From Bacteroidota bacterium (GTDB lineage: Bacteria; Bacteroidota; Bacteroidia; Bacteroidales; GCA-2748055), in the NCBI GenBank assembly GCA_024640885.1, contig JAHEEC010000005.1:1-64000 (forward strand): 64,000 bases of DNA, read 5' to 3'. The notes beneath the pieces were generated by a model that was not told where the DNA came from, did no database searches, and worked only from the letters and a program-made list of their open reading frames with translations. A program made the position numbers and the translations under genes. Of this stretch, positions 8,817 to 41,367 are shown piece after piece. Position 1 is the stretch's first letter, and every line of letters starts with the position of its first letter.

Positions 8817-11156
8817 ATGTGGCTCTCTTTTCTTAAAATAGCATTCAGGGTTCTGCTCAGGAACCGGAGATTTTCCCTTCTTAACCTGGTGGGTTTAACC
8901 ATTGGACTTGCAAGCTTCATTGTCATTCTGAGCTGGGTGAAAGATGAACTCTCCGTGGACAGGTTTCATTCCAAGAAACAGAGGATCGTACAATTGACCA
9001 TCAAGCATCCGGAGGGGATCCTGGATGCCAATGTGCCCTATGCCCTTACCGCAAGACTGGCAGAGCAATATCCGGAAATTGAGTCACACTGCACGCTGAT
9101 GCGGATGGGTGACATCTCAAACTGGTCATTTATCTTCAATCCTGATTCCGCGGAACAACAGAAAGCATATGAACCAGCAGTGGCAAAGGTGGAACCTGCT
9201 TTTTTTGAGATTTTTAATTTTCAGTTGCTGTACGGGTCCAAAGCCGGATTGCTGGACCGGCCCAACGCAGTGGTGATCAGTTCAAGGATTGCGGATATTT
9301 ATTATCCAGGAGAGAACCCGGTGGGTCGCTCCATGTTGGTCAACAACAACCAGTTGTTCACCATTTCGGGGGTGGTGGAGATCCCGGGAAATACATTTTT
9401 CCAATTCGATTTCTTTATACCCACATTCGCGGATCTGTCCAATGACTGGAACTGGAGGGATCCTTCTTACCTGCTGCTGGCCCCGGGTGTGGATCAGGAA
9501 AGCTTCAATGAGAAAATCGCCTCCTCCCTGAATGACCTGTACCCAGATCCGCTGCCGGGAACGTTCGAGGTCGGCGCACTTCCCATCCAGAAAACCCACC
9601 TCACTTTCGGGGGAACGGGGAAGATATGGCTCTTTAGCACTGTGGCACTTTTATTGCTCTTTGTGGCATCCCTGAACTATATGAACCTTGCAACCGCAAA
9701 CTATACCAGCAGGATGCGCGAGACCGGGATCCGCAAGGTACTCGGGGCCAGAAGGGGACAATTAATGATCCATTTTTTCCTGGAAACCTATATCCTTGCC
9801 CTGGCGGCCCTGGTTCTTGCACTCTTTTTAGCCGAATTGATCATGCCGGCAATGACTCCACTGTTTGGCAAACGCATTGAGATCGGTTACCTGGATCAAC
9901 CCCTCTTGCTGGCGGTGCTCTTCCTGATGGCCGGCCTTCTGGGAACCCTGGCATCCATTTACCCATCCCTGTTGTTTACCGGAGGGAATCCTGTGGAGGT
10001 GCTGCACCGCTCCTCCCACCCCGCTGGCAGAAGATCAGTGCTCATCCTGATCACCATTATTTTCCAGTTCACCCTCTCCATCGCATTAATGATCTCTACC
10101 CTTGTGGTGATCAAACAAACCAGGTTTACCACTCAGGCGGACCTTGGATTTTCGGTGGATAACGTGGTGAGCATCCCCATGAACCAGGGCCTGGGAATCA
10201 ATTTTCTTGCTTTCATTGAGCGGCTTGAGTCTCATCCGGATGTGGACATGGTAACGGCCGGACAATCGTATCCTTACAATGAGGATTCCAAGACCAATAT
10301 TGAATGGACCAACATGGAAGATCCCTCCATGGGACTATGCAGGTACTCCATCTGCCTGAAAAACTACCTGGAGCTCTTTGATATGAGGTTGGAAAGCGGC
10401 AGAGGCTATTCGGAGGGATTTCTGACGGATGTGGATAAATACATCATCAACGAGAAGGCTGCCGACATGATGGGATTTGAAGATCCGGTGGGACAACGGC
10501 TGACCATGTGGGGAAGAGAGGGGGAGGTAATCGGGGTGGTACGCGACTTCCACCATGTGTCATTGCACAGGGAGATCCTCCCCCATGTATTCAATATCCA
10601 TCCTTCAAATTACAACTGGCTGAGGTATGTGTTCGTCAAACTTAATACCGGCAGGAGCGATCAGACCCTTTCCTACCTTGAATCTGCTTGTCAGGAGTTT
10701 GCACCGGAATTCCCTTTCACATATACATTCCTGGAGGATGATCTCAGGAAACAGTATACCACCGACCAGAACCTGAGCCGGATCCTGGGTCTCTTTGCCC
10801 TTTTGGTCCTGGTTGTTTCCAGCCTGGGAATATACGGGCTGGCCTATTACTCCGTTGAAAAACTATCCCGGGTCATTACCATTCGCAAAGTCTTTGGGGC
10901 AGGGGTCGGGCAAATCCTGGCACTCTATTACAAAAACATGCTGAGCCGTTTGGGAATCAGCCTGATCCTGGCCATTGGGCTATCCCTGTTTTTTACGTCC
11001 CGGTGGCTCCAGAACTTCGCCTACCGGATTCACCTGGATCCCTTTGTCTTCCTTGTACCTGCAGTCCTGGCCCTGCTTATCGCCGGCCTGGCCACCATGA
11101 TCGCCATCGGGCGATCCGTGAGACAGAACCCGGCGGACCTGATCAAACAGGAATAG
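8817..11156 (+). CDS. ABC transporter permease, MacB/FtsX type
   Basis: 779 residues with the architecture of Bacteroidota FtsX-type permeases: a first helix (about 20-40) after NPRRFSLLNLVGL-like basic residues, a periplasmic MacB core domain (about 45-245), a three-helix FtsX block (about 270-420, with MRETGIRKVLGARR), a second set starting near 415 with a further periplasmic domain, and a final FtsX block (about 655-775, with VITIRKVFGAG). This duplicated form does not pump by itself but couples ATP use to periplasmic work, often moving lipoproteins or peptides. No ATP-binding subunit is encoded next to it, so it must borrow one. Expression is probably driven by the sigma-54 promoter just upstream. 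It converges on the amino-acid permease with a 6-base gap. Confidence 0.9.
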   Translation: MWLSFLKIAFRVLLRNRRFSLLNLVGLTIGLASFIVILSWVKDELSVDRFHSKKQRIVQLTIKHPEGILDANVPYALTARLAEQYPEIESHCTLMRMGDISNWSFIFNPDSAEQQKAYEPAVAKVEPAFFEIFNFQLLYGSKAGLLDRPNAVVISSRIADIYYPGENPVGRSMLVNNNQLFTISGVVEIPGNTFFQFDFFIPTFADLSNDWNWRDPSYLLLAPGVDQESFNEKIASSLNDLYPDPLPGTFEVGALPIQKTHLTFGGTGKIWLFSTVALLLLFVASLNYMNLATANYTSRMRETGIRKVLGARRGQLMIHFFLETYILALAALVLALFLAELIMPAMTPLFGKRIEIGYLDQPLLLAVLFLMAGLLGTLASIYPSLLFTGGNPVEVLHRSSHPAGRRSVLILITIIFQFTLSIALMISTLVVIKQTRFTTQADLGFSVDNVVSIPMNQGLGINFLAFIERLESHPDVDMVTAGQSYPYNEDSKTNIEWTNMEDPSMGLCRYSICLKNYLELFDMRLESGRGYSEGFLTDVDKYIINEKAADMMGFEDPVGQRLTMWGREGEVIGVVRDFHHVSLHREILPHVFNIHPSNYNWLRYVFVKLNTGRSDQTLSYLESACQEFAPEFPFTYTFLEDDLRKQYTTDQNLSRILGLFALLVLVVSSLGIYGLAYYSVEKLSRVITIRKVFGAGVGQILALYYKNMLSRLGISLILAIGLSLFFTSRWLQNFAYRIHLDPFVFLVPAVLALLIAGLATMIAIGRSVRQNPADLIKQE

Positions 11157-23314: not shown

Positions 23315-23401
23315 ACTTGAATGTTTTACGCTATGCAACCTTATAACCAAACCACAAGTTTTTACGTATAGTTGCACAATAAGGTTTGCTTCTTAGACCC
23401 G

Positions 23402-26400
23402 ATGGATCCTAAATTTAATAAACTCTTCCTGAAATACCTGATTCGTGCGGTGTTTGTGGTGTTGCTGCTTGGGAACACGCTCCATTCTTATTCCCAGATC
23501 GATACGGATTTCTGGTTCGTGGTCCCCGAACTATCCCACCGGGGATCCACCGGGGGGACACCCGGTACACTTCGGATCTCCACCCTTGACCTACCGGCCA
23601 CGGTCACCATCAGCATGCCTGCCAACGTCTACAACGCCATCACCAATCCCACCGGGTTCCAGGATATCGTGGTGGATATCCCGGCCAACGGGGCCACGGC
23701 CGTGGATCTGACCGCCCTGATCGACGTGTTTGGAAGCCCGGTCAACAGGCTTGAAAACAAACCCCTTACCCCCAGCGGGATCAATAATTTCGGGTTGCAT
23801 ATCACCTCCACCAATATGATCAACGTCTACTGGGAAGTGAACTACGAATATGCCGCGGACCTGTGGACCCTGAAAGGATCCAACGGGCTTGGGAACCTCT
23901 TCTACACCCCGTTTCAGACGGTTTACGATAACAGGCTCACCATTCCGCAGGCCTACTCGGCCATCGATATCGTGGCCACCGCCGACAACACCCAGGTATT
24001 CATCACCCTTCCCCCGGGTAAGGGTGCCAGCTACGGATCATTGCCCCAGAACATTGCCCCGGGGGCAACCCATATGGTGACCCTGAACCAGGGACAAACT
24101 TTCTCGGTCTTCCCGCTCTTGTACAGCAACCTTGCCTCCGACCGGCTTGCGGGAACGAGGATCCAGTCCACCAATCCCATCGCCGTGACTGTCAAAGATG
24201 ATGCCCTCAATACGGGCTCCGGGGGACAGGATCTGATCGGTGACCAGCTGGTACCAGTGGACATCATTGGCGACAATTACATTGTGCCCGACATTTGGAA
24301 TCCCAACCATATCTATGTACTGGCCACGGAGGACAACACCAGCATCTATTTGACCAATGCCGCCGGGGCCCCCATCGGGCCCACACCCTACACCACACTG
24401 AACAGGGGTCAGCAGGCCCTTGTGGTGGTGCCCAACGGATCAAAATATGCACGGATCACATCCCGGGTCAATGCCGCCGACCCGGTAAAACCCTTTTATG
24501 TCTTCCAGGTGGCACCCATCGGGAACCGGAACCGCGGGGGTGCCCTGGTCCCTGCCATCGGATGTACCGGCAATACACAGCTTGCATTTACCCGCGCCCG
24601 CGAAAAAGAAAATGCCTTTAATTTCTTCATCATCACCGAAAAGGGGAACGAGGACAAGTTCCTGATCGACGGGGTCAGGAACGACGGGGTGATTGATCCC
24701 GGCTCATTTACGGAGATTGCAGGCAGTGATGGCTGGGTGGCGCTCTTTACGAACCTCATCAATGAAACCAAACTCCCAACCGGGCAACACCTGGTAAGCA
24801 ACACGGGGGGGATCTTTCACCTGGCCATCTACAACGGGTTTCAATCGGCCCAGAACGGGGGCCTTTATTATGGATATTACTCTGATTTTGGAGGGTTGAA
24901 TGTGGGTGCCACAGTGGCAGGGACCAACTCCGAAGAGATCAGGGCCTGCTACGGGGAACCGATCCAGCTCTATGCTTTCGGGGGGACCACCTACCGGTGG
25001 ACACCCGATACCTACCTGGATAACGCCAACATCAACATGCCCACGGCCATCAACCTTCCACCGGGTCCGCACCTCTACACAGTGGAGGTCTCGGGGGCCT
25101 GTGGATCGGGTTCCATTCCCCTGACCCTCCTGGTCTCCACACCCGTGGTTGCCAATTTTGAAACCGACGTCACCTCGGGATGCTCCCCCCTTGAAATCCA
25201 GTTTGAGGACCAGTCCACCGGGATGTTCTCCTGGCAATATGACCTGGGTGACGGCACCCCGTTGATGAGGTACGACCTCGACGGGCTCGACGTTCCCTAT
25301 CCGGAACCGCCCGATCCTTTCGTATTCACCCATACGTATACCAATACCACCAACCTGCCCATCGATTACGAGGTCACCCTGCTGGTAAAGAATGCCAGCG
25401 GTTGTGCCGACATCCGGACAAAAACCATTACGGTCTTCCCGGAGATTCATTCCGATATCGACCTGGACCTGGATGAAGGTTGCGATCCACTTGAGGTGGA
25501 GTTCTTAAATAACTCCTGGGGGAATACCGGAACCTGGCTCTGGGAGTTCGGGGATGGGGGGTCTTCGGTGGAGGAGCACCCTGTGCACCAGTTCAGGAAC
25601 CTTTTCGGGCCGGGCAACCTGGTCTTTGATACACGGCTCATCGCCATATCGCCTTATAATTGCCGGGATACCTCTTCAATCCCCATCACGGTCAGCCCCT
25701 ACATTGAGGCCAGCTTCGCCTACGACACGGTGGCCGAATGCTCACCCCATGAAATCGTGATCACTGACCAGTCCGTCGGTGCAGACCTCTATTCATGGGA
25801 TTTCGGGGACGGGTCCACCAGCAACTCTCCCGGTCCTCAGATCCTGAAAACCTATGTGAACAACACCTCCTTCCCGGTGACCTACACCATCACCCTGAGG
25901 GTGGATAATTTGCAGGGCTGCACACACACCATCCAGCGGGAGGTTACGGTCTATCCCCAGGTGGATGCCGATTTTTCAGTGCTTCCCCTGGAGGCATGTT
26001 CCCCTGCAGAGATCATCTTCCAGAACAATTCCACCGGGGCGGCCACCTACCTTTGGGATTTTGGGGATGGGGGCACATCCACAGAAATTCATCCCATTCA
26101 CCGCTATGACCGCAACATGCTTCGGCACGATACGGTATTCAGGGTTTCCCTGGTGGCCACCTCCACGGAAATCTGCCGGGACACTGCCTATTTCGATGTG
26201 GTGATCCATCCCTACATCGAAGCGGCCTTTACCATCGATGACGTGGTGGGGTGCCATCCGTTCCCAGTCACCATTCACAACGAATCGATCAGTGCGGACC
26301 AGTATTTCTGGGATTTCGGGGATGGAACCCCCGTGAGCAATAACGGCTCCCCGGTACTGACACACACCTACTTCAATGCCACCGGCGCCACGGTGGTCTA

Positions 26401-29400
26401 TCCCCTCCAGCTAATCGTTTTTAACGAGGAGGGATGCAGCGACACCATGGTCAGGTACATCACGGTACATCCAGAGATCAGTGCAGGCTTTTTACCCGAT
26501 GCCCAGGCGGGGTGCCACCCGCTGACCGTCACTTTTGCAGATCTTTCGGTGAATGCGGTGAATTACCTCTGGGACTTTGGCGACGGGGCCGCATCGGTGG
26601 AACCCTCGCCCGTTCACACTTTCGTGAATTTTGGCACCACGGATACCACCTACATTGTGAGCCTGACCACCTCCACTTCGGATGGGGAGTGTGTCAAATC
26701 CCTCACCTGGCCCATCACGGTCCACCCGCAGGTGGTGGCAGAATTCACTTTCCCCAATGCCCATGGATGCGGACCCTTTGAAGTCACCTTTGATAACCTT
26801 TCCATCGGTGGATTCACCTATACCTGGGATTTTGATGACGGTACCGTAATTGCCACACTGGATGACGGGCCCCAGACCCATAGCTTCAGCAACACAGGTT
26901 TCATTGACAACCAGGAATTTGATGTGAGCCTGCGGGTGGAAAATTCATTCGGCTGTACCAGTGAAATCATTAAGACGGTCACTGTCTACCCGGGTATTGA
27001 CAGCGATTTCGGGGCTTCCGACACCGAGGGGTGCCACCCCCTGGAAGTTGACTTCAATAACCTGACCATCGGGGGAGAGACCTACGTGTGGGATTTCGGG
27101 GACGGATCAACCTCCAACCTTCTGGATCCGGGCCATATCTTCTCCAATACGGGTAATATCGATTCGGTCTATACAGTCAGATTGCAGGCCATTGCGCCGA
27201 ATAATATTTGCAGGGATTCATTCTTCATGGATATCACGGTGCATCCTTACATCCGGGCAAACTTCACCATTCCTGACGACCTGGGCTGCAATCCATTCGA
27301 AGTGACCATTCAGAATGCTTCCATCAACGGGGACCTGTTCCACTGGGATTTCGGCGATGGAACCGATACGACCACCACGAATGCCGCCCCCCTTGTGCAC
27401 CGCTATTTCAATACGGATTTTGCAAACCAGCAGGATTACGTGATCACCCTGGTGGCTGAGAACTTGGCCGGATGCACCCATGAGATCTCACGCACCATCA
27501 CCGTGGAGCCTGATATCATGGCCGCTTTTGATCCCAGCCAGCTTTCTGGGTGCCATCCCCTGACCGTTGATTTTCTCAACCTGTCAGCCGGCGCCTCCTA
27601 TTATTTCTGGGACTTTGGCAACGGCACCTCTTCACAGGAGGTCAGTCCCTCCCAGACCTTCACCAACATCGGTCAGGCAGATTCCACCTACCGGATCTGG
27701 CTGCGGGCCACTGCCGGCAACCATGTGTGCAAGGACTCCATATTTGTCGATATCGTGGTACATCCATACATCATGCCGGATTTCACCTTCCAGGAGCAGG
27801 TCAACTGCACGCCGTCACCGGTCATTTTCAACAACGCTTCGGTGGGTGGTACAACTTTCCGCTGGGACTTCGACGACGGAACCGATACCACCACCTATAA
27901 TAAGAATTCCGTGCAACATACCTTCAACAACACCAGCTATAGCAGCAATGGGGTCTTCCAGGTAAGTCTGACCATCGAGAATGCAGCAGGCTGCATGAAC
28001 CAGGTGGTAAAGACCGTGGAGGTCTATCCGGCCATAGAGGCCCTGTTCGATGCGAGTGTGGGAGAAGGTTGCCATCCCCTGGAGGTGAATTTCGAGAACC
28101 TCTCGAGCGGGGGATACATTTTTGCTTGGGACTTTGGAGACGGGGCATCCAGTAACTCAGATTCGCCGGACCACACCTTCACCAATTTCACCGATGCGCC
28201 CATAACCCGGCAGGTTCACCTGCTGGCGACCTCCCGCTACAACTGCACCAGTGAGGTAACGGGCGAGATCACCATTCATCCCAAACCCGTTGCCCGATTT
28301 GAGCTCCCGAAGATCATCGATTGTCCTCCCTTCGATCTGCCCATCCTCAATACGAGTCTCAATGCGGACCAGTACCTGTGGAACATCGGTACCGATACCA
28401 CCATTAATACAAGGTCGGAGTCCCCCTTCAACCATGTCTTTGAGAACCTGACCGATGATATAGCCACTTACGTGTTGCGGCTCAGGTCCGCCTCAGATTA
28501 CGGGTGTGTGGACTCGGCAAGGCAGAATATTTATGTTTACCCGAGGACCATTGCCGATTTCACTGTGAATGACGGGGATTGCAGCCCGTTCCCGGCCTAC
28601 TTTATCAACCAGTCGGTTCGGGGCCAGACCTACCTCTGGGATTTCGGGGATGGAAATACCATGGCATCCACCGATCCCACCAACCTCTATTTCAACATCT
28701 CCGGGAGCGATACCACCTACCAGGTCACCCTCACCTCCACCTCGCGTTACGGATGTGTGGATTCGGACACCGCCACCATTGAGGTCTATGCCCAGCCCGA
28801 AGCAGAGTTCGTTCCCTCCCCCACCCACCAGATGTACCCCTCCTCGGATGTGGATTTCACCAACCTCTCCAATGCGGGTGACTGGTCCTACAGATGGGAG
28901 ATGGGCGACGGTTTCACCACCACCCTTACGGATCCGGTGACCCACTCATACGACACCTGGGGTGATTATGTGATCTGGTTGCATCTCTCCACGGCCCACT
29001 GCGCAGATTCGGTCTCCCATTCGGTCCGGATCCTGCCAGCTGCCCCTGTGGCGCAATTTGACACCACTGTGCCGGCCTGCGAGCCCTACACGGTCCAGTT
29101 CAGGAATAACTCCGTCTACGGGGAAACCTACCTGTGGGAATTCGATGACGGGTCCACCTCCACCGAGTTTGAACCGGAACACACCTTTAGCGAGTCCGGG
29201 ATCTACAATGTTAAACTCACGGTGACCGGGGCGGGAGGTCGCGAGATTGCTTACAGCCAGGTGGTTGTATGGGATATGCCGGTGGTCGATTTCAGGGTTG
29301 CCCCTGAACTGGTCATGTTGCCCGACGATGAGATCCGGCTCTTCAACCTATCAAAATACGGCTCCACCTACCTGTGGGATTTCGGCGATGGGAACACCTC

Positions 29401-29845
29401 CACCGATCAGAATCCCCATCACCTCTATTCGGTCATCGGGGTGTATGACATATCACTGGATGTATGGACCGAGAACGGATGCTACGACCGGATCGTGAAG
29501 CCTGCCCTTGTGAGGGTGGAGGGTGCAGGGGTGATCCTCTTTCCCAATGCCTTTAAGCCGGATATGGATGGCCCCAATGGCGGATATTATAACCTGAATG
29601 ATCCTGAAAAGAACAACATCTTCCATCCTTACTGGGAAGGGGTCCAGGAATTTCACATGGAGATTTACGACCGGTGGGGAGAGAAGCTTTTCTACAGCAA
29701 CGATGTGAATATTGGCTGGGACGGTTACAACAACGGGACCCTCTGCTCGCAGGGAGTTTATGTCTGGAAGTCATGGGGCCACTTCATCAACGGGAAGATC
29801 TTTCAGCTGAAGGGGGATGTGACCCTTCTCTATGATAACCGGTAA
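23402..29845 (+). CDS. Giant PKD-repeat surface protein with gliding-motility (type B) C-terminal domain
   Basis: About 2147 residues from ATG 23402 (the signal peptide MDPKFNKLFLKYL ... Ser-Tyr-Ser-Gln fits this start; 23372 is an alternative). Residues about 25-450 resemble the IgGFc-binding N-terminal domain (TDFWFVVPELSH, FGLHITSTNMINVYWE). Then come 17 PKD-like domains (bases about 25150-29515), nearly all with the YxWDFGDG signature. The last 90 residues carry the CHU_C/gliding-motility type domain (FPNAFKPD, MEIYDRWGEKLFYS, GWDGYNNG, GVYVWK), a type B T9SS signal. No catalytic motif was seen. It is probably a long, cell-surface or extracellular adhesin. Head-to-head with the other giant gene. 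Confidence 0.88.
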   Translation: MDPKFNKLFLKYLIRAVFVVLLLGNTLHSYSQIDTDFWFVVPELSHRGSTGGTPGTLRISTLDLPATVTISMPANVYNAITNPTGFQDIVVDIPANGATAVDLTALIDVFGSPVNRLENKPLTPSGINNFGLHITSTNMINVYWEVNYEYAADLWTLKGSNGLGNLFYTPFQTVYDNRLTIPQAYSAIDIVATADNTQVFITLPPGKGASYGSLPQNIAPGATHMVTLNQGQTFSVFPLLYSNLASDRLAGTRIQSTNPIAVTVKDDALNTGSGGQDLIGDQLVPVDIIGDNYIVPDIWNPNHIYVLATEDNTSIYLTNAAGAPIGPTPYTTLNRGQQALVVVPNGSKYARITSRVNAADPVKPFYVFQVAPIGNRNRGGALVPAIGCTGNTQLAFTRAREKENAFNFFIITEKGNEDKFLIDGVRNDGVIDPGSFTEIAGSDGWVALFTNLINETKLPTGQHLVSNTGGIFHLAIYNGFQSAQNGGLYYGYYSDFGGLNVGATVAGTNSEEIRACYGEPIQLYAFGGTTYRWTPDTYLDNANINMPTAINLPPGPHLYTVEVSGACGSGSIPLTLLVSTPVVANFETDVTSGCSPLEIQFEDQSTGMFSWQYDLGDGTPLMRYDLDGLDVPYPEPPDPFVFTHTYTNTTNLPIDYEVTLLVKNASGCADIRTKTITVFPEIHSDIDLDLDEGCDPLEVEFLNNSWGNTGTWLWEFGDGGSSVEEHPVHQFRNLFGPGNLVFDTRLIAISPYNCRDTSSIPITVSPYIEASFAYDTVAECSPHEIVITDQSVGADLYSWDFGDGSTSNSPGPQILKTYVNNTSFPVTYTITLRVDNLQGCTHTIQREVTVYPQVDADFSVLPLEACSPAEIIFQNNSTGAATYLWDFGDGGTSTEIHPIHRYDRNMLRHDTVFRVSLVATSTEICRDTAYFDVVIHPYIEAAFTIDDVVGCHPFPVTIHNESISADQYFWDFGDGTPVSNNGSPVLTHTYFNATGATVVYPLQLIVFNEEGCSDTMVRYITVHPEISAGFLPDAQAGCHPLTVTFADLSVNAVNYLWDFGDGAASVEPSPVHTFVNFGTTDTTYIVSLTTSTSDGECVKSLTWPITVHPQVVAEFTFPNAHGCGPFEVTFDNLSIGGFTYTWDFDDGTVIATLDDGPQTHSFSNTGFIDNQEFDVSLRVENSFGCTSEIIKTVTVYPGIDSDFGASDTEGCHPLEVDFNNLTIGGETYVWDFGDGSTSNLLDPGHIFSNTGNIDSVYTVRLQAIAPNNICRDSFFMDITVHPYIRANFTIPDDLGCNPFEVTIQNASINGDLFHWDFGDGTDTTTTNAAPLVHRYFNTDFANQQDYVITLVAENLAGCTHEISRTITVEPDIMAAFDPSQLSGCHPLTVDFLNLSAGASYYFWDFGNGTSSQEVSPSQTFTNIGQADSTYRIWLRATAGNHVCKDSIFVDIVVHPYIMPDFTFQEQVNCTPSPVIFNNASVGGTTFRWDFDDGTDTTTYNKNSVQHTFNNTSYSSNGVFQVSLTIENAAGCMNQVVKTVEVYPAIEALFDASVGEGCHPLEVNFENLSSGGYIFAWDFGDGASSNSDSPDHTFTNFTDAPITRQVHLLATSRYNCTSEVTGEITIHPKPVARFELPKIIDCPPFDLPILNTSLNADQYLWNIGTDTTINTRSESPFNHVFENLTDDIATYVLRLRSASDYGCVDSARQNIYVYPRTIADFTVNDGDCSPFPAYFINQSVRGQTYLWDFGDGNTMASTDPTNLYFNISGSDTTYQVTLTSTSRYGCVDSDTATIEVYAQPEAEFVPSPTHQMYPSSDVDFTNLSNAGDWSYRWEMGDGFTTTLTDPVTHSYDTWGDYVIWLHLSTAHCADSVSHSVRILPAAPVAQFDTTVPACEPYTVQFRNNSVYGETYLWEFDDGSTSTEFEPEHTFSESGIYNVKLTVTGAGGREIAYSQVVVWDMPVVDFRVAPELVMLPDDEIRLFNLSKYGSTYLWDFGDGNTSTDQNPHHLYSVIGVYDISLDVWTENGCYDRIVKPALVRVEGAGVILFPNAFKPDMDGPNGGYYNLNDPEKNNIFHPYWEGVQEFHMEIYDRWGEKLFYSNDVNIGWDGYNNGTLCSQGVYVWKSWGHFINGKIFQLKGDVTLLYDNR
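25150..29515 (+). repeat. Seventeen PKD domains with a two-domain higher-order repeat
   Basis: PKD units average 257 bases. From unit 1 to 13, two subtypes alternate. Even-numbered units have a short body ending mostly in His-Pro-Tyr-Ile; odd-numbered units have a longer body with Asn-Thr near the loop, a Gly-Cys-Thr segment and a Tyr-Pro end. Starts of successive even units are at 25451, 25967, 26483, 27002, 27521, 28040 and 28553, a regular period of 513-519 bases. Units 14 to 17 do not follow the alternation. Confidence 0.75.
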
Positions 29846-32076: not shown

Positions 32077-34569
32077 TCACTCCTGGATGATCATTCTTCG
32101 TGACCATCCCTCTCCTGCTGAATTTTCCAGCCTGAAGAAATAGAGTCCTTCCCTCAACCCGTCCCGGGGGATCAATAGGCGGTGCGCTCCCGCGGGAAAT
32201 TCTCCCAGGGACCTCTGCATGACCTGTTTTCCCAGGGCGTCTATGACTTTCAGCCACATTCGCTCTCCCTCCATCAGGCTGAACTGAAGTGTGGTGGATT
32301 GGGAGAAGGGGTTGGGATATGCGTTGAAATGATCCACTGAGAACTGTCCAATGCCTACTCCAAAGATGGTCACCGCTTCAGGAAGGGATATATTGCCGGC
32401 CGAATCGGTGGCAAACAACAGGTAAATGCCATTGGGCAGTCCCGATATGGAAAATTGCACGGCAATGCCGGCCGCTGCCTCCACCGAGTCAATGGTGGCC
32501 CCGCGAATGGCATCAATTTGCGCAGGAGTACCGTCAGGAACCAGGTAGATCGAACCATCCTCAGAGCTGGTGGCCTCCACGGTTCCTTCCACATGGAGCG
32601 AGTCGGTGGCCTCAAGTACAGGGGGCTCCTCGTCCGGTACCACAAGAGTCATGACTGTCACCGCATCAGAGGGTTCGCTCTCATTGCCGGCCTCATCGAA
32701 AGCTGCGACCGTAAATTGATAGGTTGTGCCCGGAATCAGCAGGGTCACAGAAAAACTGGTGTCGTATGCCGTATCCATCCACATTCCGTTGGCAAATATC
32801 CTGTATGCGGTTACCCCGGTGTCATCGGTGGAGGGGTCCCAGGCGAGCTCAACCGAGGTTTGCGAGACTGAACCTGCGGAAAGGTTTCCAGGAATGGAAG
32901 GTGCTTCAGTATCCGGGGGGAGGGTAGTGGCCGAAACCGGAAGGGAGCTCTGGCTTTCATTGGGAACGTGATCAAAGGCAGAGACCGATATTTCATAGGC
33001 TGTGGCCGGATCCAGCCCGGTAACCACATAACTTGTGTCAGGGCTGGTTCCATGAAGGATCCCGTCCAGGTAGATCCTGTACCCCTCCACCCCCACGCTG
33101 TCGGTGGAAGGGTCCCAGGTAAATGCCAGTGAACGGGTGGTTGCTTCCGCAAGAGAAAGATTTTCCGGGATGGACGGGGCCACCGTATCCAGGGAAGGGT
33201 CATAGGGCGAAAGCTGCATCGCCACCGTGGTTATGGAATGGGCCGTTGCCGTGAATAGTGAATCGGTCAATGTTCCCAGCAACAAGCAATTTTCGCTGTC
33301 CGAAGTGCGGTAAACCAAGGATTCCGTAATGCGGTATCCCGGAACATCCACGTGCACTGCCATTTCGCTGGTGGAAGAGCGGTTGATCACTACGCAGGTG
33401 GCAGAATCGCCTTCGGGGTTTATAAAGGTCAGCGAGGCCCCGTCGGTGCCGGTCAGGGCATGACCTGTCATTTTCCATCCCGGTTGAATGAAAGCGGAGA
33501 ACTGCTTGAAGGCATAAAAATCCTTGGTTTTCGTATACCCTTTCTCAGGATCGATCCATCTGGAGCGGTCCCAGGGAAAATCAAGGGTCACCAGTCCGCC
33601 TGATTCCCAGATCAGGGGCCAGTAGAGGTAAGCCACCACCTTTTCATCATAAAACGATTTATAGATCAGGCCTGCCAGTGAGAACCAGTCACCGCGGTCA
33701 TATTCGGTCTGGAAATGGGGGAGTTCGGGGTAGAGGTTGCCCACCTTGGCAAAGTCGGTGGAGGCATAGGGATTGTTTTCATCCACCCCATGGTAGAGGT
33801 GATGTGAGATGCCATCCAACCTGGAGACATCCAGGTTGTTCACATACCGTTCCACATTGTCATATCCCATTCCCACGGTCTCTGGCCCCAGAATCGCCGG
33901 TCTTCTTTCCATGTTCGCCAGGGTGTCGTAGACCGCCACAAGGGCCCTGTCATACCCGGCAATGGTATCCGTGGTGGTGATCCGCTCCTTTGGATACAAC
34001 AGGCAACTCTCGTAGGGAGCTTTCCAGTCCGGTTCATTCTGGATGGAGATGTAATCGGGAAAGATGCCATGTGCATGGTATTCCTCCAGGGAGGATTTCC
34101 ACCAGTGCGCAAAACCTGCATAATCAAAGAGGGTCTTTCCTCCCTCTACGCTGTACCTCAGTGTGCCTCCATTGCTTCGATCGTTATTGCTTTTCAGGTA
34201 TCCCGGGGGCCCCCATGAGACGGACATGACCGAAATGGGGTATCCCAGCACTTTTTCCGAAGCCTCCACATATTCCTGGACCCTAGTCACCATGCCCGGA
34301 TCATAATCATGGGCATTTCTAACCCGGAGGATATCCAGGCTCAACTCTCCGAAAATGGCTTCATAGATTTCGGCCTTATTGGGATGGGCATTGAGCCATC
34401 CCTCATAATAGGCAAGGGCTGCCCCGAACCCCACAACGGTCTGATAGCGGGTCCCGGTTTGAATGGTCAGTGCCTCTTCATTGCCGCTCTGCGCATTCAG
34501 GAAACCGGGGATGGAAAGAAAAATTGTGAGCCCGAGGAAGTAAGGAAGAATATGTGACTTAAATTTCAT
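32077..34569 (-). CDS. Secreted GH30-like glycoside hydrolase with two FN3 domains and T9SS signal
   Basis: 830 residues. Signal peptide ends near Leu-Asn-Ala-Gln. A GH30-type (beta/alpha)8 domain and side beta-domain cover about 30-470: QTVVGFGAALAYYEG, SVSWGPPGYLKS, ISIQNEPDW with acid/base Glu at about 179 and HFQTEYDRGDW with nucleophile Glu at about 289. Then two fibronectin type III domains (about 475-560 and 570-655), a further beta-sandwich region and a type A sorting domain (about 750-830, AYPNPFSQSTTLQF, GLREGLYFFRLE). GH30 members cut beta-glycosidic bonds, often in xylan or beta-1,6-glucan; this protein's subfamily is not clear. It should be delivered to the surface by the T9SS. 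Confidence 0.88.
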   Translation of the reverse strand: MKFKSHILPYFLGLTIFLSIPGFLNAQSGNEEALTIQTGTRYQTVVGFGAALAYYEGWLNAHPNKAEIYEAIFGELSLDILRVRNAHDYDPGMVTRVQEYVEASEKVLGYPISVMSVSWGPPGYLKSNNDRSNGGTLRYSVEGGKTLFDYAGFAHWWKSSLEEYHAHGIFPDYISIQNEPDWKAPYESCLLYPKERITTTDTIAGYDRALVAVYDTLANMERRPAILGPETVGMGYDNVERYVNNLDVSRLDGISHHLYHGVDENNPYASTDFAKVGNLYPELPHFQTEYDRGDWFSLAGLIYKSFYDEKVVAYLYWPLIWESGGLVTLDFPWDRSRWIDPEKGYTKTKDFYAFKQFSAFIQPGWKMTGHALTGTDGASLTFINPEGDSATCVVINRSSTSEMAVHVDVPGYRITESLVYRTSDSENCLLLGTLTDSLFTATAHSITTVAMQLSPYDPSLDTVAPSIPENLSLAEATTRSLAFTWDPSTDSVGVEGYRIYLDGILHGTSPDTSYVVTGLDPATAYEISVSAFDHVPNESQSSLPVSATTLPPDTEAPSIPGNLSAGSVSQTSVELAWDPSTDDTGVTAYRIFANGMWMDTAYDTSFSVTLLIPGTTYQFTVAAFDEAGNESEPSDAVTVMTLVVPDEEPPVLEATDSLHVEGTVEATSSEDGSIYLVPDGTPAQIDAIRGATIDSVEAAAGIAVQFSISGLPNGIYLLFATDSAGNISLPEAVTIFGVGIGQFSVDHFNAYPNPFSQSTTLQFSLMEGERMWLKVIDALGKQVMQRSLGEFPAGAHRLLIPRDGLREGLYFFRLENSAGEGWSRRMIIQE

Positions 34570-34986: not shown

Positions 34987-37230
34987 ATGGCAAAGAAAGG
35001 AGTCCCATCTTATTATGGATTAAGAATTTATATCTCTTCTTCCGCCCTCTATTTTTTTCTTGTCATCCCCTTCCTGGCCTTCCTGGCCTTTCAGAGTGTT
35101 CCGGAATTCATGAAGGAGAAGCCAGGTAAACTGGGGGAGGCAATGAACGTGGCCGACTCCCTGGAGATCTCCCTTGATTCCGTTGCACGGATGGATGAAA
35201 TGGATATTGACAGCCTGGTCAACAGGGCCATTGTACTGGGGGAGAATGTGGCAGACAGCGCGGCAAGCGGCAGAGCGCAGGCTGGTATTGTCATCCACGA
35301 TGACCGGGAGGATACCCGCATCGGACCTGGTGAAGACAGCCCATTCGCGGCCTATTTCCTGCTGGTTTTCTTTTTTACCCTGTTGAGTTACCTGGTGGGG
35401 TTCCTCTACAACCGGCCATTCAAAAGGTACTTCAGACTGACCAGGTCAGGAAAGGATGTCCCTCAAAGACTATATGCTTCCTGTAAGAAACACCTGTTCC
35501 ATACGCCGGTTGTGAACGCCCTGATTGTGGGCATGCCCGGGATCATCATTTTTATTTACACACTGATTGCAATCCTTGCCAGATCCAACTTCGACGGGGA
35601 AGCGGAACGGGACCTCTTTACCAAGCTTCATTACCTGACCCTGGTGGCTACCATTCTTGAATTCCTGTTTGTCTATTTCTGGCAAAAGCACAGGGTACAT
35701 ATCAAGTACATTGAATATCTCTACTCCCCCGAAGAGCTCCGCAGGCAGGTATTCCGAAGGAAAGGAGGCAGGATCAGGAACCGTTTGCTGGTAGCCAGCG
35801 GAATGACCACCTTCATGCCGCTTGTGATCGTGATGGTTTACCTGCTGTTAAGCGTTACCTCCATCAGGGATCTTGAGCTGGATGAGATTACACCCGAACA
35901 GAAGAAGATCCTGGTGGGGCCATTGAGCTTTATTGCAGATTCCAATGGAGAGACCAATTCCATTAAAAAATTCGAGAACTTATTCTATGTAAATGCCATA
36001 GATTCCATCGTCATGCTGGCCGGCATTGGGAGCGGAATCCTTATTTCACTGGTATACCTGATGCTGTTCATCAAATGGACCAACCAGGACATTACGCAAC
36101 CAGTGAAGGAGCTTCTGGGTAACATCCGGAACACCCGTGGGGGGGAGAAAGAGCTTTATACCGTCGTGCGGACCAACGATGAAATCGGGGAACTGGCCGA
36201 AGGGTATAACGAAATGACCAGGCAGATCCACGAACATGTGGAAAGCATCTCGAAAATGAACAGGGATCTTGAGGTCACTGTGAAGGAGCGGACCAACGAA
36301 GTGGTCATGCAGAAGGAGGAGATCGAAGCCCAAAAAGAGGAGATCGAAGCCCAGCTGGACCTGGCCACCTCACAGAGGGACACCATCATGAGGCAGAAAG
36401 AGCAGATTCTGGATAGCATCAGGTATGCGGAAAAGATCCAGTCGGCTATCCTGCCACCCATGGAATACCTGGCCGAATCATTCACGGACCATTTTATCCT
36501 CTTCAGGCCCAGGGATATCGTGAGCGGGGACTATTACTGGACCACGCGGCAGGGAGACAGGCTCATGGTGGCTGTAGCCGATTGTACCGGCCATGGGGTC
36601 CCGGGGGCTTTTTTAAGCATGCTGGGCATCTCTTCCATGAATGAGATCGTAAGCAGGAGTGATTCCATCAAAGCCAACGAGATCCTTGAAAAGTTAAGGG
36701 ACTTTGTAATTAGGTCCCTTCATCAAACCGGCACCAGGGGAGAGGCCCGGGATGGGATCGAGATCGCGCTGGCCGTGATCGACACACGGAAGAAAACCCT
36801 GCAATTCGCAGGTGCAAACAGGCCGCTTTACATGGTCAGAAGGAAGGAAAAGTCATCTGACGGCAACGGGAAGAAAAAGTACAGATCCGGGGATGAGATC
36901 TTCGAAGAGAGCTCCTCCCACAGGCTTCTTCAAATCCGGGCCGATAAAATGCCCATTGGCATTTATGACCAGGAGCCCATCCCTTTCAAAAACCATGAAA
37001 TCAAATTGGAAGCCGGCGACTCAATTTACCTTTTCTCCGATGGATACGTGGACCAGCTGGGGGGACCATCCAGGAAAACTTTCAGGTCAAAACATTTCAG
37101 AAAGCTTTTGCTTGAAATCCAGGAGCACCCGATGGAAACTCAGAAAGGGATCCTGGTAGAACAGCTGGAATCCTGGCGGAACAAGGTGGAACAGATCGAT
37201 GATATCCTTGTGATAGGAATTAAAATATAG
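34987..37230 (+). CDS. Membrane SpoIIE/PP2C-type protein phosphatase (SiaA-like) with HAMP domain
   Basis: 747 residues. About six hydrophobic helices (near 20-38, 118-138, 178-200, 215-233, 273-293, 340-362) with a periplasmic stretch between the first two. A HAMP domain (about 362-415) and a Glu/Lys-rich coiled coil (about 415-480, with a repeated KEEIEAQ) lead to a SpoIIE phosphatase domain: FRPRDIVSGDYYW and VAVADCTGHGVPGAFLSML hold metal-binding Asp residues; a further one is in YLFSDGYVDQ. The family dephosphorylates a Ser/Thr phosphoprotein in partner switching. The SiaC-like target and SiaB-like kinase lie immediately downstream on the other strand (10-base gap), which makes them the obvious partners. 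A HAMP domain implies signal input through the membrane part. Confidence 0.9.
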   Translation: MAKKGVPSYYGLRIYISSSALYFFLVIPFLAFLAFQSVPEFMKEKPGKLGEAMNVADSLEISLDSVARMDEMDIDSLVNRAIVLGENVADSAASGRAQAGIVIHDDREDTRIGPGEDSPFAAYFLLVFFFTLLSYLVGFLYNRPFKRYFRLTRSGKDVPQRLYASCKKHLFHTPVVNALIVGMPGIIIFIYTLIAILARSNFDGEAERDLFTKLHYLTLVATILEFLFVYFWQKHRVHIKYIEYLYSPEELRRQVFRRKGGRIRNRLLVASGMTTFMPLVIVMVYLLLSVTSIRDLELDEITPEQKKILVGPLSFIADSNGETNSIKKFENLFYVNAIDSIVMLAGIGSGILISLVYLMLFIKWTNQDITQPVKELLGNIRNTRGGEKELYTVVRTNDEIGELAEGYNEMTRQIHEHVESISKMNRDLEVTVKERTNEVVMQKEEIEAQKEEIEAQLDLATSQRDTIMRQKEQILDSIRYAEKIQSAILPPMEYLAESFTDHFILFRPRDIVSGDYYWTTRQGDRLMVAVADCTGHGVPGAFLSMLGISSMNEIVSRSDSIKANEILEKLRDFVIRSLHQTGTRGEARDGIEIALAVIDTRKKTLQFAGANRPLYMVRRKEKSSDGNGKKKYRSGDEIFEESSSHRLLQIRADKMPIGIYDQEPIPFKNHEIKLEAGDSIYLFSDGYVDQLGGPSRKTFRSKHFRKLLLEIQEHPMETQKGILVEQLESWRNKVEQIDDILVIGIKI

Positions 37231-37240
37231 ATAAACCAAC

Positions 37241-37645
37241 CTATACCTCGATCTTCACATATTCAAAGGGAAGCCGGCACATCCTCGACATCTCCATGCC
37301 CACTTCAAGCATGTCCTCATCATCCTCCTCGTAGTGCCAGTAGATCCCGATCTTGACGCCCTTGCTGTCAAGATTGCTTAGGGTTTTAAACAAATCCAGG
37401 ATATATTTAGCAGAAGTAGAATTGAAATACTCGAAGCTAAAGTGGAATTCCCGGGTGCTGCTTTTGTCAGTCGCCCCCCCGGAGGTAACCTCCTTGGTAT
37501 ACTTTTCCAACCATTCCAGCACGGGCATATAGAAATTCCTCACATTCTCAGGACGGGATTCTCCTGAAAATTGAAACAGATTTTTTTCGGGATCCAGTGA
37601 AACACTTGGGGTGTTTAATGTGGGCTCAATGATAAGCTTTTCCAT
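37241..37645 (-). CDS. SiaC-like regulatory phosphoprotein (DUF1987)
   Basis: 134 residues from ATG 37645 (an in-frame ATG at 37657 would overlap siaB by 8 bases). It matches the SiaC/DUF1987 family: Glu-Lys-Leu-Ile-Ile-Glu-Pro-Thr start, SGESRPENVRNFY, a strand HFSFEYFNSTSAKYILDLF and a C-terminal IYWHYEEDDEDMLEVG. The phospho-acceptor in the Pseudomonas protein is a Thr in a Tyr-Leu-Asn-Thr-Ser-Ser context; here the matching stretch is Tyr-Phe-Asn-Ser-Thr-Ser, so a Ser stands at that position with a Thr next to it. It is the likely substrate of the kinase encoded just upstream and of the phosphatase across the strand. Confidence 0.88.
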   Translation of the reverse strand: MEKLIIEPTLNTPSVSLDPEKNLFQFSGESRPENVRNFYMPVLEWLEKYTKEVTSGGATDKSSTREFHFSFEYFNSTSAKYILDLFKTLSNLDSKGVKIGIYWHYEEDDEDMLEVGMEMSRMCRLPFEYVKIEV

Positions 37646-37649
37646 TATA

Positions 37650-38162
37650 CTATCCATTAATTATGATTTGCATTTTAAAGTATGAGTAAGTCTCATCCAG
37701 GGGTGAAAAACTGAAGTTTATATCCACATCGGTCCGAAGGGCCATGGTGATCAACCCCAGGCCTGCACCTCGATCATCCACACCGGCCTCTTTATTGATC
37801 ACATCCTCGTATAATGATTTCAGTGCTTCATTATCCAGCTGGTTGACCCGGTCGAGCTTAAAGGTGAGATCCCCGATATCATCGTTCAACACCATGTTTC
37901 CCGATGTCACCGAATATTGATCTGCCATTCTCTCTACCAGGATCATTGGAGCGACCTTGGGACTGTTGAGATCTGCAGTATTGCTTGCCGCGTACTTGAA
38001 TATATTGTCAATTGACTCGACGAATGTACTGTAAAGCCTTTTCCTTGCAGGTTTCTTCATTTCATTGAAATCCTTTGCGGATCTCAGCTTATTCAGAAGC
38101 TTCTCCATGGTTTCGAAGGTGAAGGAACCCATATAGTATATCAAGGTCTTTGTCTTCGGCAT
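37650..38162 (-). CDS. SiaB-like protein kinase (DUF6272, GHKL fold)
   Basis: 170 residues from ATG 38162; an upstream ATG at 38198 would add 12 unusual residues. It has the GHKL-type ATP-binding marks of this family: an N-box-like FVESIDNIFKYA, and a glycine-rich GVDDRGAGLGLITMAL that would close over the nucleotide. In Pseudomonas, SiaB phosphorylates SiaC while SiaA removes the phosphate. The 4-base gap to the SiaC-like gene shows they are one translation unit. It is divergent from the ABC-transporter gene at 38272, sharing a 109-base region that contains promoter-like sequence for the transporter. Confidence 0.87.
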   Translation of the reverse strand: MPKTKTLIYYMGSFTFETMEKLLNKLRSAKDFNEMKKPARKRLYSTFVESIDNIFKYAASNTADLNSPKVAPMILVERMADQYSVTSGNMVLNDDIGDLTFKLDRVNQLDNEALKSLYEDVINKEAGVDDRGAGLGLITMALRTDVDINFSFSPLDETYSYFKMQIIING

Positions 38163-38224
38163 AGAAATACCCGGTCTATTTTCATTCCTGAAGAACAAAG
38201 TAACTAAAAAAAAGTCTAATCCGA

Positions 38225-38253
38225 TTGTAACCTTTTAAAATTGAATATATTCG
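38225..38253 (+). promoter_or_regulatory. Promoter-like sequence before the ABCG-type transporter
   Basis: TTG (38225-38227), 18-base spacer, TATATTCG (38246-38253), one mismatch to TAnnTTTG and a spacer slightly short of the norm. It would begin transcription near 38258, 14 bases before ATG 38272. Confidence 0.4.
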
Positions 38254-38271
38254 CAATATAACTCCTGTATT

Positions 38272-41200
38272 ATGAGTGAAGCCATTTTAAAAGTTCTGAT
38301 GCAGCTCTTTGCATTAATTGTTGATATTGATGAAGTTCAGGAAATCAAAGAGGAGGAGCGGGGCATCATCCGGGCCTTCCTTTCCCGCCAGCTCAATGCC
38401 GACCTGGTGGACCATTACATGGACGTTTTCGAAGAGTTCCTGGTACTGTATCATCAGAACAGTGTGGATAAAGGCTCCATCAGGAATAAAAAAAGAACCT
38501 CCCTGACCGCCGTCAGGATTCTTTCAATTTGTGAAAAGATCAATGAAGAGCTGGAACAGAAACAGAAAGTGTATGTGATCATCCAGTTAATAGAGTACAT
38601 TGCGTACGGGATCGAAATCCGGGAGACCGAACTGGATTTTCTCTTTACAGTGGCTTCAGCCTTCAACATCCCTGAGGATGAATACCAGAACATCCTGAAT
38701 TTTGTGATTTTCTCCCTCAAGGAGATCCCCCACAAGGAAAACATCCTGTTGATCAACAACGAGGAATATCCCAGTGTTCCCGGAGCACATCACGTCGTTA
38801 ATAAGAACCTCCTCGGAGAGATTACCTTTCTGAATATCACCAGCGTAAATACATTCGTGGTACGCTACCGCGGCAAGGAGGACCTGCTCCTGAACGGTCA
38901 GCATCTGCACTCCGGGTTGTCCTATACATTTGTGCACGGAGCCTCAATCAGGGGTCCGAACATTCAGCCCATCTATTACACGGATGTGGCCGGGACCTTC
39001 TCCAAGGCCACCATTGCCTCAAAGATTTCATTCATCGCCCGCAATGTGGAATTCAGATTCCATAACAGTGATAACGGATTGCAATCTTTTAACCTGCAGG
39101 AGGAATCCGGAAAGCTGGTTGGCATCATGGGCGGAAGCGGTGTGGGGAAATCTACCCTCCTGAATGTGCTGAATGGGAACCTGAAGCCCCAGAGCGGGGA
39201 GATCATGATCAATGGCCATGACCTTTACCTGGAAAAGGAGAAAGAGAAGCTGAATGGCGTCATCGGGTTTATTCCCCAGGATGACCTCCTGATGGAGGAT
39301 CTGACGGTATATCAGAACCTCTATTACAATGCCAGTCTCTGTCTGAATGATTACGGAGATGACAAGATCCGGGAAATTGTTAAACAGGTGCTGATCGACC
39401 TTGATCTTTATGAGATCAGGGACCTCAAAGTGGGCAAACCGTTGAACAAGGTGATCAGCGGCGGCCAGCGCAAGAGGGTCAACATCGGACTAGAACTGAT
39501 CAGGGAACCCTCCATCCTCTTTGTGGACGAACCCACGTCGGGCCTCTCATCGGTAGACTCTGAAATGGTGATGAACCTGCTGCGGGAACAGGTGTTCAAA
39601 GGCAAGCTGGTGATTGTAAATATCCATCAACCCTCTTCCGACCTGTATAAAATGTTTGACAGGATCATATTCCTGGATAAGGGTGGATACCAGATCTACT
39701 ATGGCAATCCTTCAGAGGCGGTGGTTTATTTTAAAACAAAAAGCAACCATGCCAACGCCAAGGAGGACCAGTGCATCACCTGCGGGAATGTGGACCCGGA
39801 CCAGGTCCTTCAGATCATCGAGGCAAAGATCGTCAATGAGCACGGGAAACTGTCCCGAACCAGGAAAGTGAGCCCGAAAGAGTGGTACAAGCACTTTATG
39901 GAATGCACCAACTTCCATGTGGCCGACAAACCTGAGAAGAGTGATCTCCCCAAGAATTATTACAGCATTCCAGGGATTGTGAAACAGCTGAAGATATTCT
40001 TCATGAGGGATATTCTTTCCAAACTCACAAACCGTCAGTACGTGCTGATCAGTTTGCTTGAGGCTCCCCTGCTGGCCGTGATCCTTGGCTATTTCACCAA
40101 ATATTTCAGTGGCACATCGGATAACCCCGGGGCCTATGTATTCAGGAACAATGAAAACCTGCCCTCCTACCTGCTCATGAGTGTGATCGTGTTCCTGTTC
40201 CTGGGTCTGACCATCAGCTCTGAAGAGATCATCAAGGACAGGAAGATCCTGCAGCGGGAGTCGTTCCTCAACCTCAGCCGATTCAGTTATTTAAACTCGA
40301 AGATCCTCATCATGTTCCTGATATCGGCCATCCAGACTATTTCCTATGTCCTGATCGGTAATTTGATTTTTGAGATCAGGGGCATGACCATGAGTTACTG
40401 GCTGATCCTCTTCACCGCCTCCTGTTTCGCAAATATGCTTGGCCTGAATATTTCATCGGGGTTGAATTCCGTGATTACCATCTATATCATTGTGCCTTTC
40501 CTTTTGATCCCCCAGATACTGTTCAGCGGTGTGCTTGTCAAGTTCGATAAGCTGCATAAAAGCCTTTCAAACTATGAATATGTCCCCTTTATTGGCGATT
40601 TGATGACTTCACGGTGGGCATTTGAGGCCCTGGCTGTGGAACAGTTCAAGAACAACAGGTACGAAAAGGAATTCTTTGTATATGACAAGGAGATCAGCAA
40701 TAAAAAATATTATGTCTCATACCTGATCCCCACCCTTGAGACCAAGGTGAATGACGTATTGCTGAACCTGAACAACGAAGAGGAGAGGGATAAGGTCACT
40801 AAGGAACTGGTATTGCTTGAGAATCAATTGGAATCCTTAAAATCCACATTCCCTGAAGTCCCCCTTGATCCAACCGTAACCCTGGATATCAATACTTTTG
40901 ACGAATCCAAGGCCGAAGCAATGAAAGCCTACCTGAGGGACCTTATGACCCGTCTCAGGCTGAGTATAAAAGATACAAACCTGAAAAAGAACCAGAAACA
41001 GTCCGATCTGATCGATCAGATGGGTGGCCTGATTGCCTATACTAAATTCAGGAATGAGTATGACAACAACAGGCTTTCGGAGATCCTTCTCAACAGAAAT
41101 GCATCCGAGTACTGGATTGAGGTGGACAACCGGCTGATCAGCAAGCATGAGCCCGCTTTCAGGGAACCCACCTCAAATGTGGGCCGGGCTCACCTTTATG

Positions 41201-41367
41201 CACCGGTAAAGAGGCTTGGGTCATTGACCATCGATACACTCTGGTTCAACGTGATATTCATTTGGTTCACCTCATTCATCCTTTACTTGGCCCTCTATTT
41301 TGATCTGTTGAGGAAATTGCTCACCTGGTTTGAGAACATCAGGCTGAGGAAGGGAATCAACGGATAA
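38272..41367 (+). CDS. ABCG-type ABC transporter with N-terminal helical and FHA-like regions
   Basis: 1031 residues. Residues about 1-155 are helical and acidic, TerB-like in pattern. About 160-262 look like an FHA/beta-sandwich domain (LLLNGQHLHSGLSYTFVHGA). The ABC ATPase (about 270-500) has Walker A GGSGVGKST, signature VISGGQRKRVN and Walker B ILFVDEPTSGLSS. An ABC-2 permease part (about 580-770, six helices) is then broken by a long charged, coiled-coil-like insert (about 800-960) before a last helix (about 985-1010). ATPase before permease in one chain is the ABCG order; such half-transporters work as dimers. Substrate unknown. Divergent from the SiaB/SiaC genes, and so a candidate output of that switch, but this is inference. 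Confidence 0.87.
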   Translation: MSEAILKVLMQLFALIVDIDEVQEIKEEERGIIRAFLSRQLNADLVDHYMDVFEEFLVLYHQNSVDKGSIRNKKRTSLTAVRILSICEKINEELEQKQKVYVIIQLIEYIAYGIEIRETELDFLFTVASAFNIPEDEYQNILNFVIFSLKEIPHKENILLINNEEYPSVPGAHHVVNKNLLGEITFLNITSVNTFVVRYRGKEDLLLNGQHLHSGLSYTFVHGASIRGPNIQPIYYTDVAGTFSKATIASKISFIARNVEFRFHNSDNGLQSFNLQEESGKLVGIMGGSGVGKSTLLNVLNGNLKPQSGEIMINGHDLYLEKEKEKLNGVIGFIPQDDLLMEDLTVYQNLYYNASLCLNDYGDDKIREIVKQVLIDLDLYEIRDLKVGKPLNKVISGGQRKRVNIGLELIREPSILFVDEPTSGLSSVDSEMVMNLLREQVFKGKLVIVNIHQPSSDLYKMFDRIIFLDKGGYQIYYGNPSEAVVYFKTKSNHANAKEDQCITCGNVDPDQVLQIIEAKIVNEHGKLSRTRKVSPKEWYKHFMECTNFHVADKPEKSDLPKNYYSIPGIVKQLKIFFMRDILSKLTNRQYVLISLLEAPLLAVILGYFTKYFSGTSDNPGAYVFRNNENLPSYLLMSVIVFLFLGLTISSEEIIKDRKILQRESFLNLSRFSYLNSKILIMFLISAIQTISYVLIGNLIFEIRGMTMSYWLILFTASCFANMLGLNISSGLNSVITIYIIVPFLLIPQILFSGVLVKFDKLHKSLSNYEYVPFIGDLMTSRWAFEALAVEQFKNNRYEKEFFVYDKEISNKKYYVSYLIPTLETKVNDVLLNLNNEEERDKVTKELVLLENQLESLKSTFPEVPLDPTVTLDINTFDESKAEAMKAYLRDLMTRLRLSIKDTNLKKNQKQSDLIDQMGGLIAYTKFRNEYDNNRLSEILLNRNASEYWIEVDNRLISKHEPAFREPTSNVGRAHLYAPVKRLGSLTIDTLWFNVIFIWFTSFILYLALYFDLLRKLLTWFENIRLRKGING

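Follow-up and report, generated by a model that had tools for sequence, protein, structure and literature searches.

Results and discussion

A Sia-type switch beside an ABC exporter gene

The locus described here probably encodes a SiaABC partner switch in which an ABCG-type ABC exporter would replace the diguanylate cyclase as output, with SiaC acting on the exporter by direct contact. We infer this contact from the conserved adjacency of paired SiaC and ABC clades. The locus lies in a window of 64,000 nucleotides (the whole stretch of DNA that was analysed) from a Bacteroidota genome of 4.37 Mb (G000), which is assembled in 276 contigs with a completeness of 98.29% and a contamination of 7%. 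The features concerned are as follows.

34987-37230, + strand: siaA-type phosphatase gene, 747 aa, with six transmembrane (TM) segments, a HAMP-like region, a coiled-coil linker and a SpoIIE/PP2C domain
37241-37657, - strand: siaC, 138 aa, SiaC-family phosphoprotein
37650-38162, - strand: siaB, 170 aa, SiaB-family kinase of the GHKL type
38163-38271: intergenic region of 109 bp between the divergent start codons of siaB and the ABC gene
38272-41367, + strand: ABC exporter half-transporter gene, 1031 aa, with NBD and ABC2/ABCG-type membrane domains and, by prediction, TerB-like and FHA-fold domains

According to the ORF listing, the phosphatase gene and siaC converge across a gap of 10 bp and siaC and siaB overlap by 8 bp, giving the layout phosphatase><SiaC-SiaB<>ABC. 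An earlier note on this DNA had recognized the three Sia-type genes at these positions, which the ORF listing and family searches bore out, and it was correct in placing the phosphatase gene on the strand opposite to siaB and siaC. Its proposal of a Sia switch without a cyclase, in which SiaC needs another target, also stands, but it left out the adjoining, divergent ABC exporter gene, which is the fourth part of the Sia unit. Elsewhere in the window, positions 23372-29845 encode a 2157-aa extracellular protein in which numerous PKD-like repeats and, at the C-terminus, a segment characteristic of surface proteins of Bacteroidota can be recognized by eye. An 830-aa secreted protein (32077-34569, - strand), glycoside hydrolase-like by eye, bears a sorting signal at its C-terminus and two repeats of fibronectin-III-like type; its gene is placed between those of an aldo/keto reductase and the phosphatase, and is missing there in several relatives.

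The phosphatase, SiaC and SiaB clearly read as intact proteins of the Sia type. The SpoIIE domain of the phosphatase (PF07228, 81.6 bits, E 9e-23; SpoIIE/PP2C residues 523-746) retains the motifs GDYYW, ADCTGHG, SDG and DDILV, including those for metal binding, and its sole relative in the PDB is the PP2C domain of Pseudomonas aeruginosa SiaA (6K4E, E 2.6e-31), with which the motifs align. Six hydrophobic segments (about 20-38, 122-140, 179-197, 214-232, 275-293 and 344-362) precede a HAMP match (PF00672, residues 369-416) that at 21 bits falls below the cut-off of 25. The window protein has the PP2C/SpoIIE domain, HAMP-like region and intact metal-binding motifs that characterize a SiaA-type phosphatase, although HAMP scores above the cut-off in an ortholog (L037, 29.2 bits) and not in the window protein itself. 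At another locus (L058), a 630-aa protein adjoining the gene pair was considered as a SpoIIE phosphatase and ruled out, being a 7TMR-DISM histidine kinase.

The window SiaC matched PF09345 with 115.9 bits (cut-off 24.5), and its relatives in the PDB are P. aeruginosa SiaC structures (6K4F, 6KKO/6KKP). Its Ser80, in the motif YFNSTSAK, aligns with Thr68, the position at which SiaB phosphorylates SiaC in P. aeruginosa (PMC7647112). This site was Ser or Thr in all 137 aligned SiaC proteins, with Ser in clade I of the SiaC tree described below and Thr throughout clade III and in every convergent pair but one. SiaB matched DUF6272 (111 bits) and the 'SiaB family protein kinase' model NF038262 (130 bits, cut-off 85), and carries the GHKL motifs of an N box (ESIDN, from residue 49) and a G1 box (DRGAGLG, from residue 130). 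All three proteins scored below the cut-offs of the Pseudomonas equivalogs (phosphatase, NF038263, 198 bits against 700; SiaC, NF038265, 69.8 against 150; SiaB, NF038264, 66 against 225), as is unsurprising between phyla. The pairing of kinase and substrate in this group is supported by natural fusions of SiaB-SiaC (291 aa, L145:6924-7799) and SiaB-SiaB-SiaC (505 aa, L225:3394-4911). SiaC has also expanded in the order of Bacteroidota that we sampled, reaching 21 genes per genome (in each of G181 and G185), nearly always without GGDEF, and its genes often lie in tandem arrays of two or three (L227, L228, L229).

Conservation of the SiaC-ABC gene neighbourhood

Among 13 orthologous loci at the genus level, two of which are interrupted by a contig end, the layout phosphatase><SiaC-SiaB<>ABC was found in all 11 with enough contig. 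The earlier note had called for a survey of the gene neighbours of SiaB-SiaC pairs, and this, carried out across the order, revealed three paralogous pairs, each beside its own clade of ABC genes: divergent in module I (the window), convergent in module II (for example at L122 of the culturable relative Marinifilum flexuosum), and in an operon in module III. The last of these, found in about 25 families, is a one-strand SpoIIE-SiaB-SiaC-ABC operon in which the ABC gene occupies the place of siaD; in most loci a few tens of bp separate the SiaC and ABC genes, in some the two overlap by 4 bp, and genes for CheR, CheB and GAF-domain proteins are found upstream in some. The opposite-strand layout that had been noted as unlike that of Pseudomonas therefore holds for the window, but it is just one of three arrangements, and the module III paralogs keep the phosphatase gene on the same strand.

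The phylogenies of the two proteins follow the same division. In the ABC tree, clade III contains 25 operon-borne genes out of 27, clade II contains 20 convergent ones out of 44, and clade I comprises 11 divergent loci together with L060; the SiaC tree resolves the same three groups. At L060, which is basal in clade I of both trees, a clade-I SiaC gene lies beside a clade-I ABC gene in another orientation, and SiaB was not found within the 19 kb of locus sequence. SiaC-ABC fusions were absent from the fetched loci, where the only fusions with SiaC were those with SiaB.

Adjacency was also far more frequent than chance would give. In a sample of 60 genomes from the order, at least 40 of 97 ABC genes had one of the 158 SiaC genes listed within 1.5 kb, compared with about 1.9 expected. 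Of these 40, 25 had SiaC upstream on the ABC strand, 13 were convergent and 2 divergent. Counted by genome in this family-spread sample, SiaC stood directly upstream of ABC in the same direction in 25 of 30 ABC-bearing genomes. Two genomes outside the order have adjacent SiaC and ABC genes, convergent in G072 and as an operon in G076, and these were the only genomes outside the family to carry both genes in an evenly drawn sample of the phylum.

Co-occurrence across species was considered as proof of the SiaC-ABC link but counts as supporting evidence only. SiaC was present in 31 and ABC in 30 of the 60 genomes of the order, with both in 30 (Fisher 5e-16), a value that overstates the association because there were few changes on an rpoB tree: SiaC changed 6 times and ABC 5 times, and of 4 independent pairs 3 agreed and 0 disagreed (p 0.25). 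Presence is clustered by phylogeny and co-occurrence by itself is not significant, so the argument draws on adjacency preserved in three arrangements and on the matching of SiaC clades with ABC clades.

These data also bear on the explanation that the switch and the exporter are linked by position or co-expression only and that SiaC acts on the product of a gene elsewhere, for instance a regulator of transcription or a further sensor protein. Among the SiaC genes listed, 57 of the 97 ABC genes had no SiaC neighbour, so the transporter can occur without an adjacent switch, and many of the SiaC paralogs, which number up to 21 per genome, are distant from any ABC gene. Module II, moreover, keeps other neighbours as well (rlmL-like and guaA-like genes), so that part of its SiaC-ABC adjacency may be plain synteny, making it the weakest of the three modules. 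Against this explanation, three SiaB-SiaC clades keep three ABC clades in three orientations, one of them the self-contained operon of module III, and we consider a purely positional link unlikely.

Several neighbourhoods contain further genes. At L169 (1108-11469) and similar loci (L185-L204) the operon runs CheR-CheB-GAF protein-GAF/PAS/SpoIIE phosphatase-SiaB-SiaC-ABC and continues with genes for two apparently exported proteins of ~300 aa and ~145 aa; a similar pair is found beside clade II ABC genes, and the proteins in both settings matched no Pfam family. The window genome has two further ABC paralogs on contig C160 (L135, 5151-8213 and 10422-12716), which are divergent and without SiaC nearby, and between which lies a response-regulator-like gene (9325-10461). 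On contig C142 of the same genome (L141:7485-9122), a solitary SiaC gene is located directly behind a gene for a MacB_PCD/FtsX-type ABC permease and also adjoins a GAPDH-like gene, an arrangement conserved in several genomes (also L048 and L174). This is possibly a second link between SiaC and a transporter.

Domains of the exporter

From its domain matches, the ABC protein is an ABCG-type exporter half-transporter, with the NBD followed by an ABC2 membrane domain in one chain. ABC_tran (105.9 bits, residues 271-423) and ABC2_membrane (73.1 bits, residues 572-787) were both identified, the NBD contains MGGSGVGKST (Walker A), ISGGQRKR (signature) and FVDEPTSG (Walker B), and the protein matched ABCG2 structures with an E-value of 4e-39. 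A putatively TerB-like helical part (about 1-150) and an FHA-fold part (about 154-245) precede the NBD (about 270-425), and a large domain lies ahead of the last TM segment.

Domain searches of the N-terminal part returned only a TerB match below threshold (PF05099, 18.3 bits, cut-off 24.4) and no FHA match, so we predicted its fold instead. In the AlphaFold2 model of residues 1-265 (pLDDT 88.5), the best structural match of the helical part was the TerB-like Porphyromonas protein PG1108 (2h5n, Z 8.3). Residues 154-245 matched FHA chains with Z 6-7.5 (Foldseek probability 0.9-1.0, best E about 0.01); these Z values are middling, yet almost all of the matches listed are FHA chains. An FHA fold in this part of the exporter is therefore supported by the predicted structure. 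Within the N-terminal part, conservation is highest over the first 14 residues, MSExILKALMQLFA.

An FHA fold raises the alternative that phospho-SiaC is the active form and is read by this domain, or that the domain reads the ABC protein after phosphorylation by SiaB, as in the mycobacterial exporter Rv1747, whose FHA domain reads phosphothreonine (PMC3908365, PMC5549992). The many FHA structures matched by residues 154-245 are in keeping with such a reader, as is the precedent of an FHA exporter encoded in one operon with its own kinase (PMC3908365). However, an alignment of 67 ABC sequences shows no conservation of the Arg that binds phosphate in the canonical FHA GR motif and contains no SRxH motif, leaving only the NG motif and a frequent Ser191. 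Furthermore, Pseudomonas SiaC binds its target in the unphosphorylated form (PMC8457831). Given the loss of the phosphate-binding residues, we retain a phospho-SiaC reader as a rival only, and regard it as quite improbable.

Absence of a diguanylate cyclase

The earlier note had found no GGDEF gene near the switch and named a GGDEF partner elsewhere in the genome as the finding that would overturn its proposal. A search of the whole window genome detected no GGDEF protein, whereas the same search was positive in 8 of 14 control genomes. Since the genome encodes no GGDEF protein, SiaC needs another target. The expectation that c-di-GMP signalling is rare in this group was likewise confirmed, GGDEF being found in one of 28 genomes of the family, as a single weak match, and in 3 of the 60 genomes of the order, only 1 of which carries SiaC. 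The rare GGDEF proteins of the order occur singly (G202:C122:4066-4539, G178:C54:59171-59632 and, at L034, G011:C279:7479-7814). That a SiaD-type cyclase was missed in an incomplete or mixed assembly and that the circuit is an ordinary one is hardly credible: the assembly is fragmented, slightly incomplete and partly contaminated, as given above, but GGDEF is lacking in 27 of 28 family genomes, and of the 31 genomes in the order sample that carry SiaC, 30 are without it.

Proposed mechanism and comparison with known systems

In the SiaABC switch with an exporter as its output, which we favour, a signal would reach the membrane phosphatase through its six-TM/HAMP part, and the triggered sensor would cause the phosphatase to dephosphorylate SiaC at Ser80. 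That SiaB phosphorylates this residue and the phosphatase strips it is suggested by the protein families, their intact motifs and the conservation of the site. SiaC, most likely in its unphosphorylated form by analogy with Pseudomonas, would then bind the N-terminal TerB/FHA region of the ABC protein, on the cytosolic side, and alter the exporter's transport activity until SiaB resets SiaC.

The closest known circuit is SiaABCD of P. aeruginosa (PMC7647112, PMC8457831), with which the window locus shares a SiaA-type PP2C/SpoIIE membrane phosphatase, a SiaB-type kinase and a SiaC protein with Ser/Thr at the position of the phospho-site; the order A-B-C-output is common to SiaABCD and the operonic paralogs of module III. 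The Pseudomonas circuit turns on SiaD, which makes the messenger c-di-GMP: SiaC attaches to the coiled-coil stalk of SiaD when it is unphosphorylated, and a phosphate on Thr68 blocks this binding (PMC8457831). The window locus differs in that an ABC exporter takes the output position, the phospho-site is Ser80 in place of Thr68, and the phosphatase, with six TM segments, is encoded on the opposite strand. The locus would work like SiaABC but falls outside the SiaABCD pathway, since the defining cyclase SiaD was looked for and is absent.

The nearest analogue of the proposed output is Rv1747 of Mycobacterium tuberculosis (PMC3908365, PMC5549992), which likewise combines an N-terminal FHA fold, an NBD and a membrane domain in a single half-transporter chain, and whose gene lies beside that of a Ser/Thr kinase, PknF, in one operon (PMC3908365). 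PknF, however, is of the Ser/Thr protein kinase type and has Rv1747 itself as its substrate, whereas the window kinase is of the GHKL type and has a separate substrate, SiaC, together with a phosphatase; the window exporter carries, besides a putative TerB-like domain, a single FHA fold whose phosphate-binding residues are degenerate. HptB-HsbA-HsbD of Pseudomonas and Bgr of Sinorhizobium, as they are cited in PMC8457831, are also phosphorylation switches in which a protein with a STAS or STAS-like domain controls an effector by contact, although the effectors there are diguanylate cyclases. Searches of open-licence papers for SiaC, DUF1987 or DUF6272 with ABC transporters, for SpoIIE with Bacteroidetes, and for TerB with FHA and ABC found nothing relevant.

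In the literature we found, the sole characterised target of SiaC is a diguanylate cyclase. The study of the SiaC-SiaD complex proposed DUF1987 proteins as general modulators of adjacent proteins (PMC8457831), and the ABC exporter is a concrete non-cyclase candidate for such modulation. We tentatively extend this, as a doubtful generalization, to much of the order, where SiaC proteins may make up a partner-switch network that is independent of c-di-GMP and has the direct control of ABC transporters as its common output, namely TerB-FHA-ABCG exporters and perhaps the MacB/FtsX-type permeases encoded beside another SiaC clade. If SiaC does bind the exporter here, the Sia switch would be a general module that could gate transport by protein phosphorylation in bacteria lacking c-di-GMP, and both the large expansion of SiaC and a conserved exporter family would gain a testable function.
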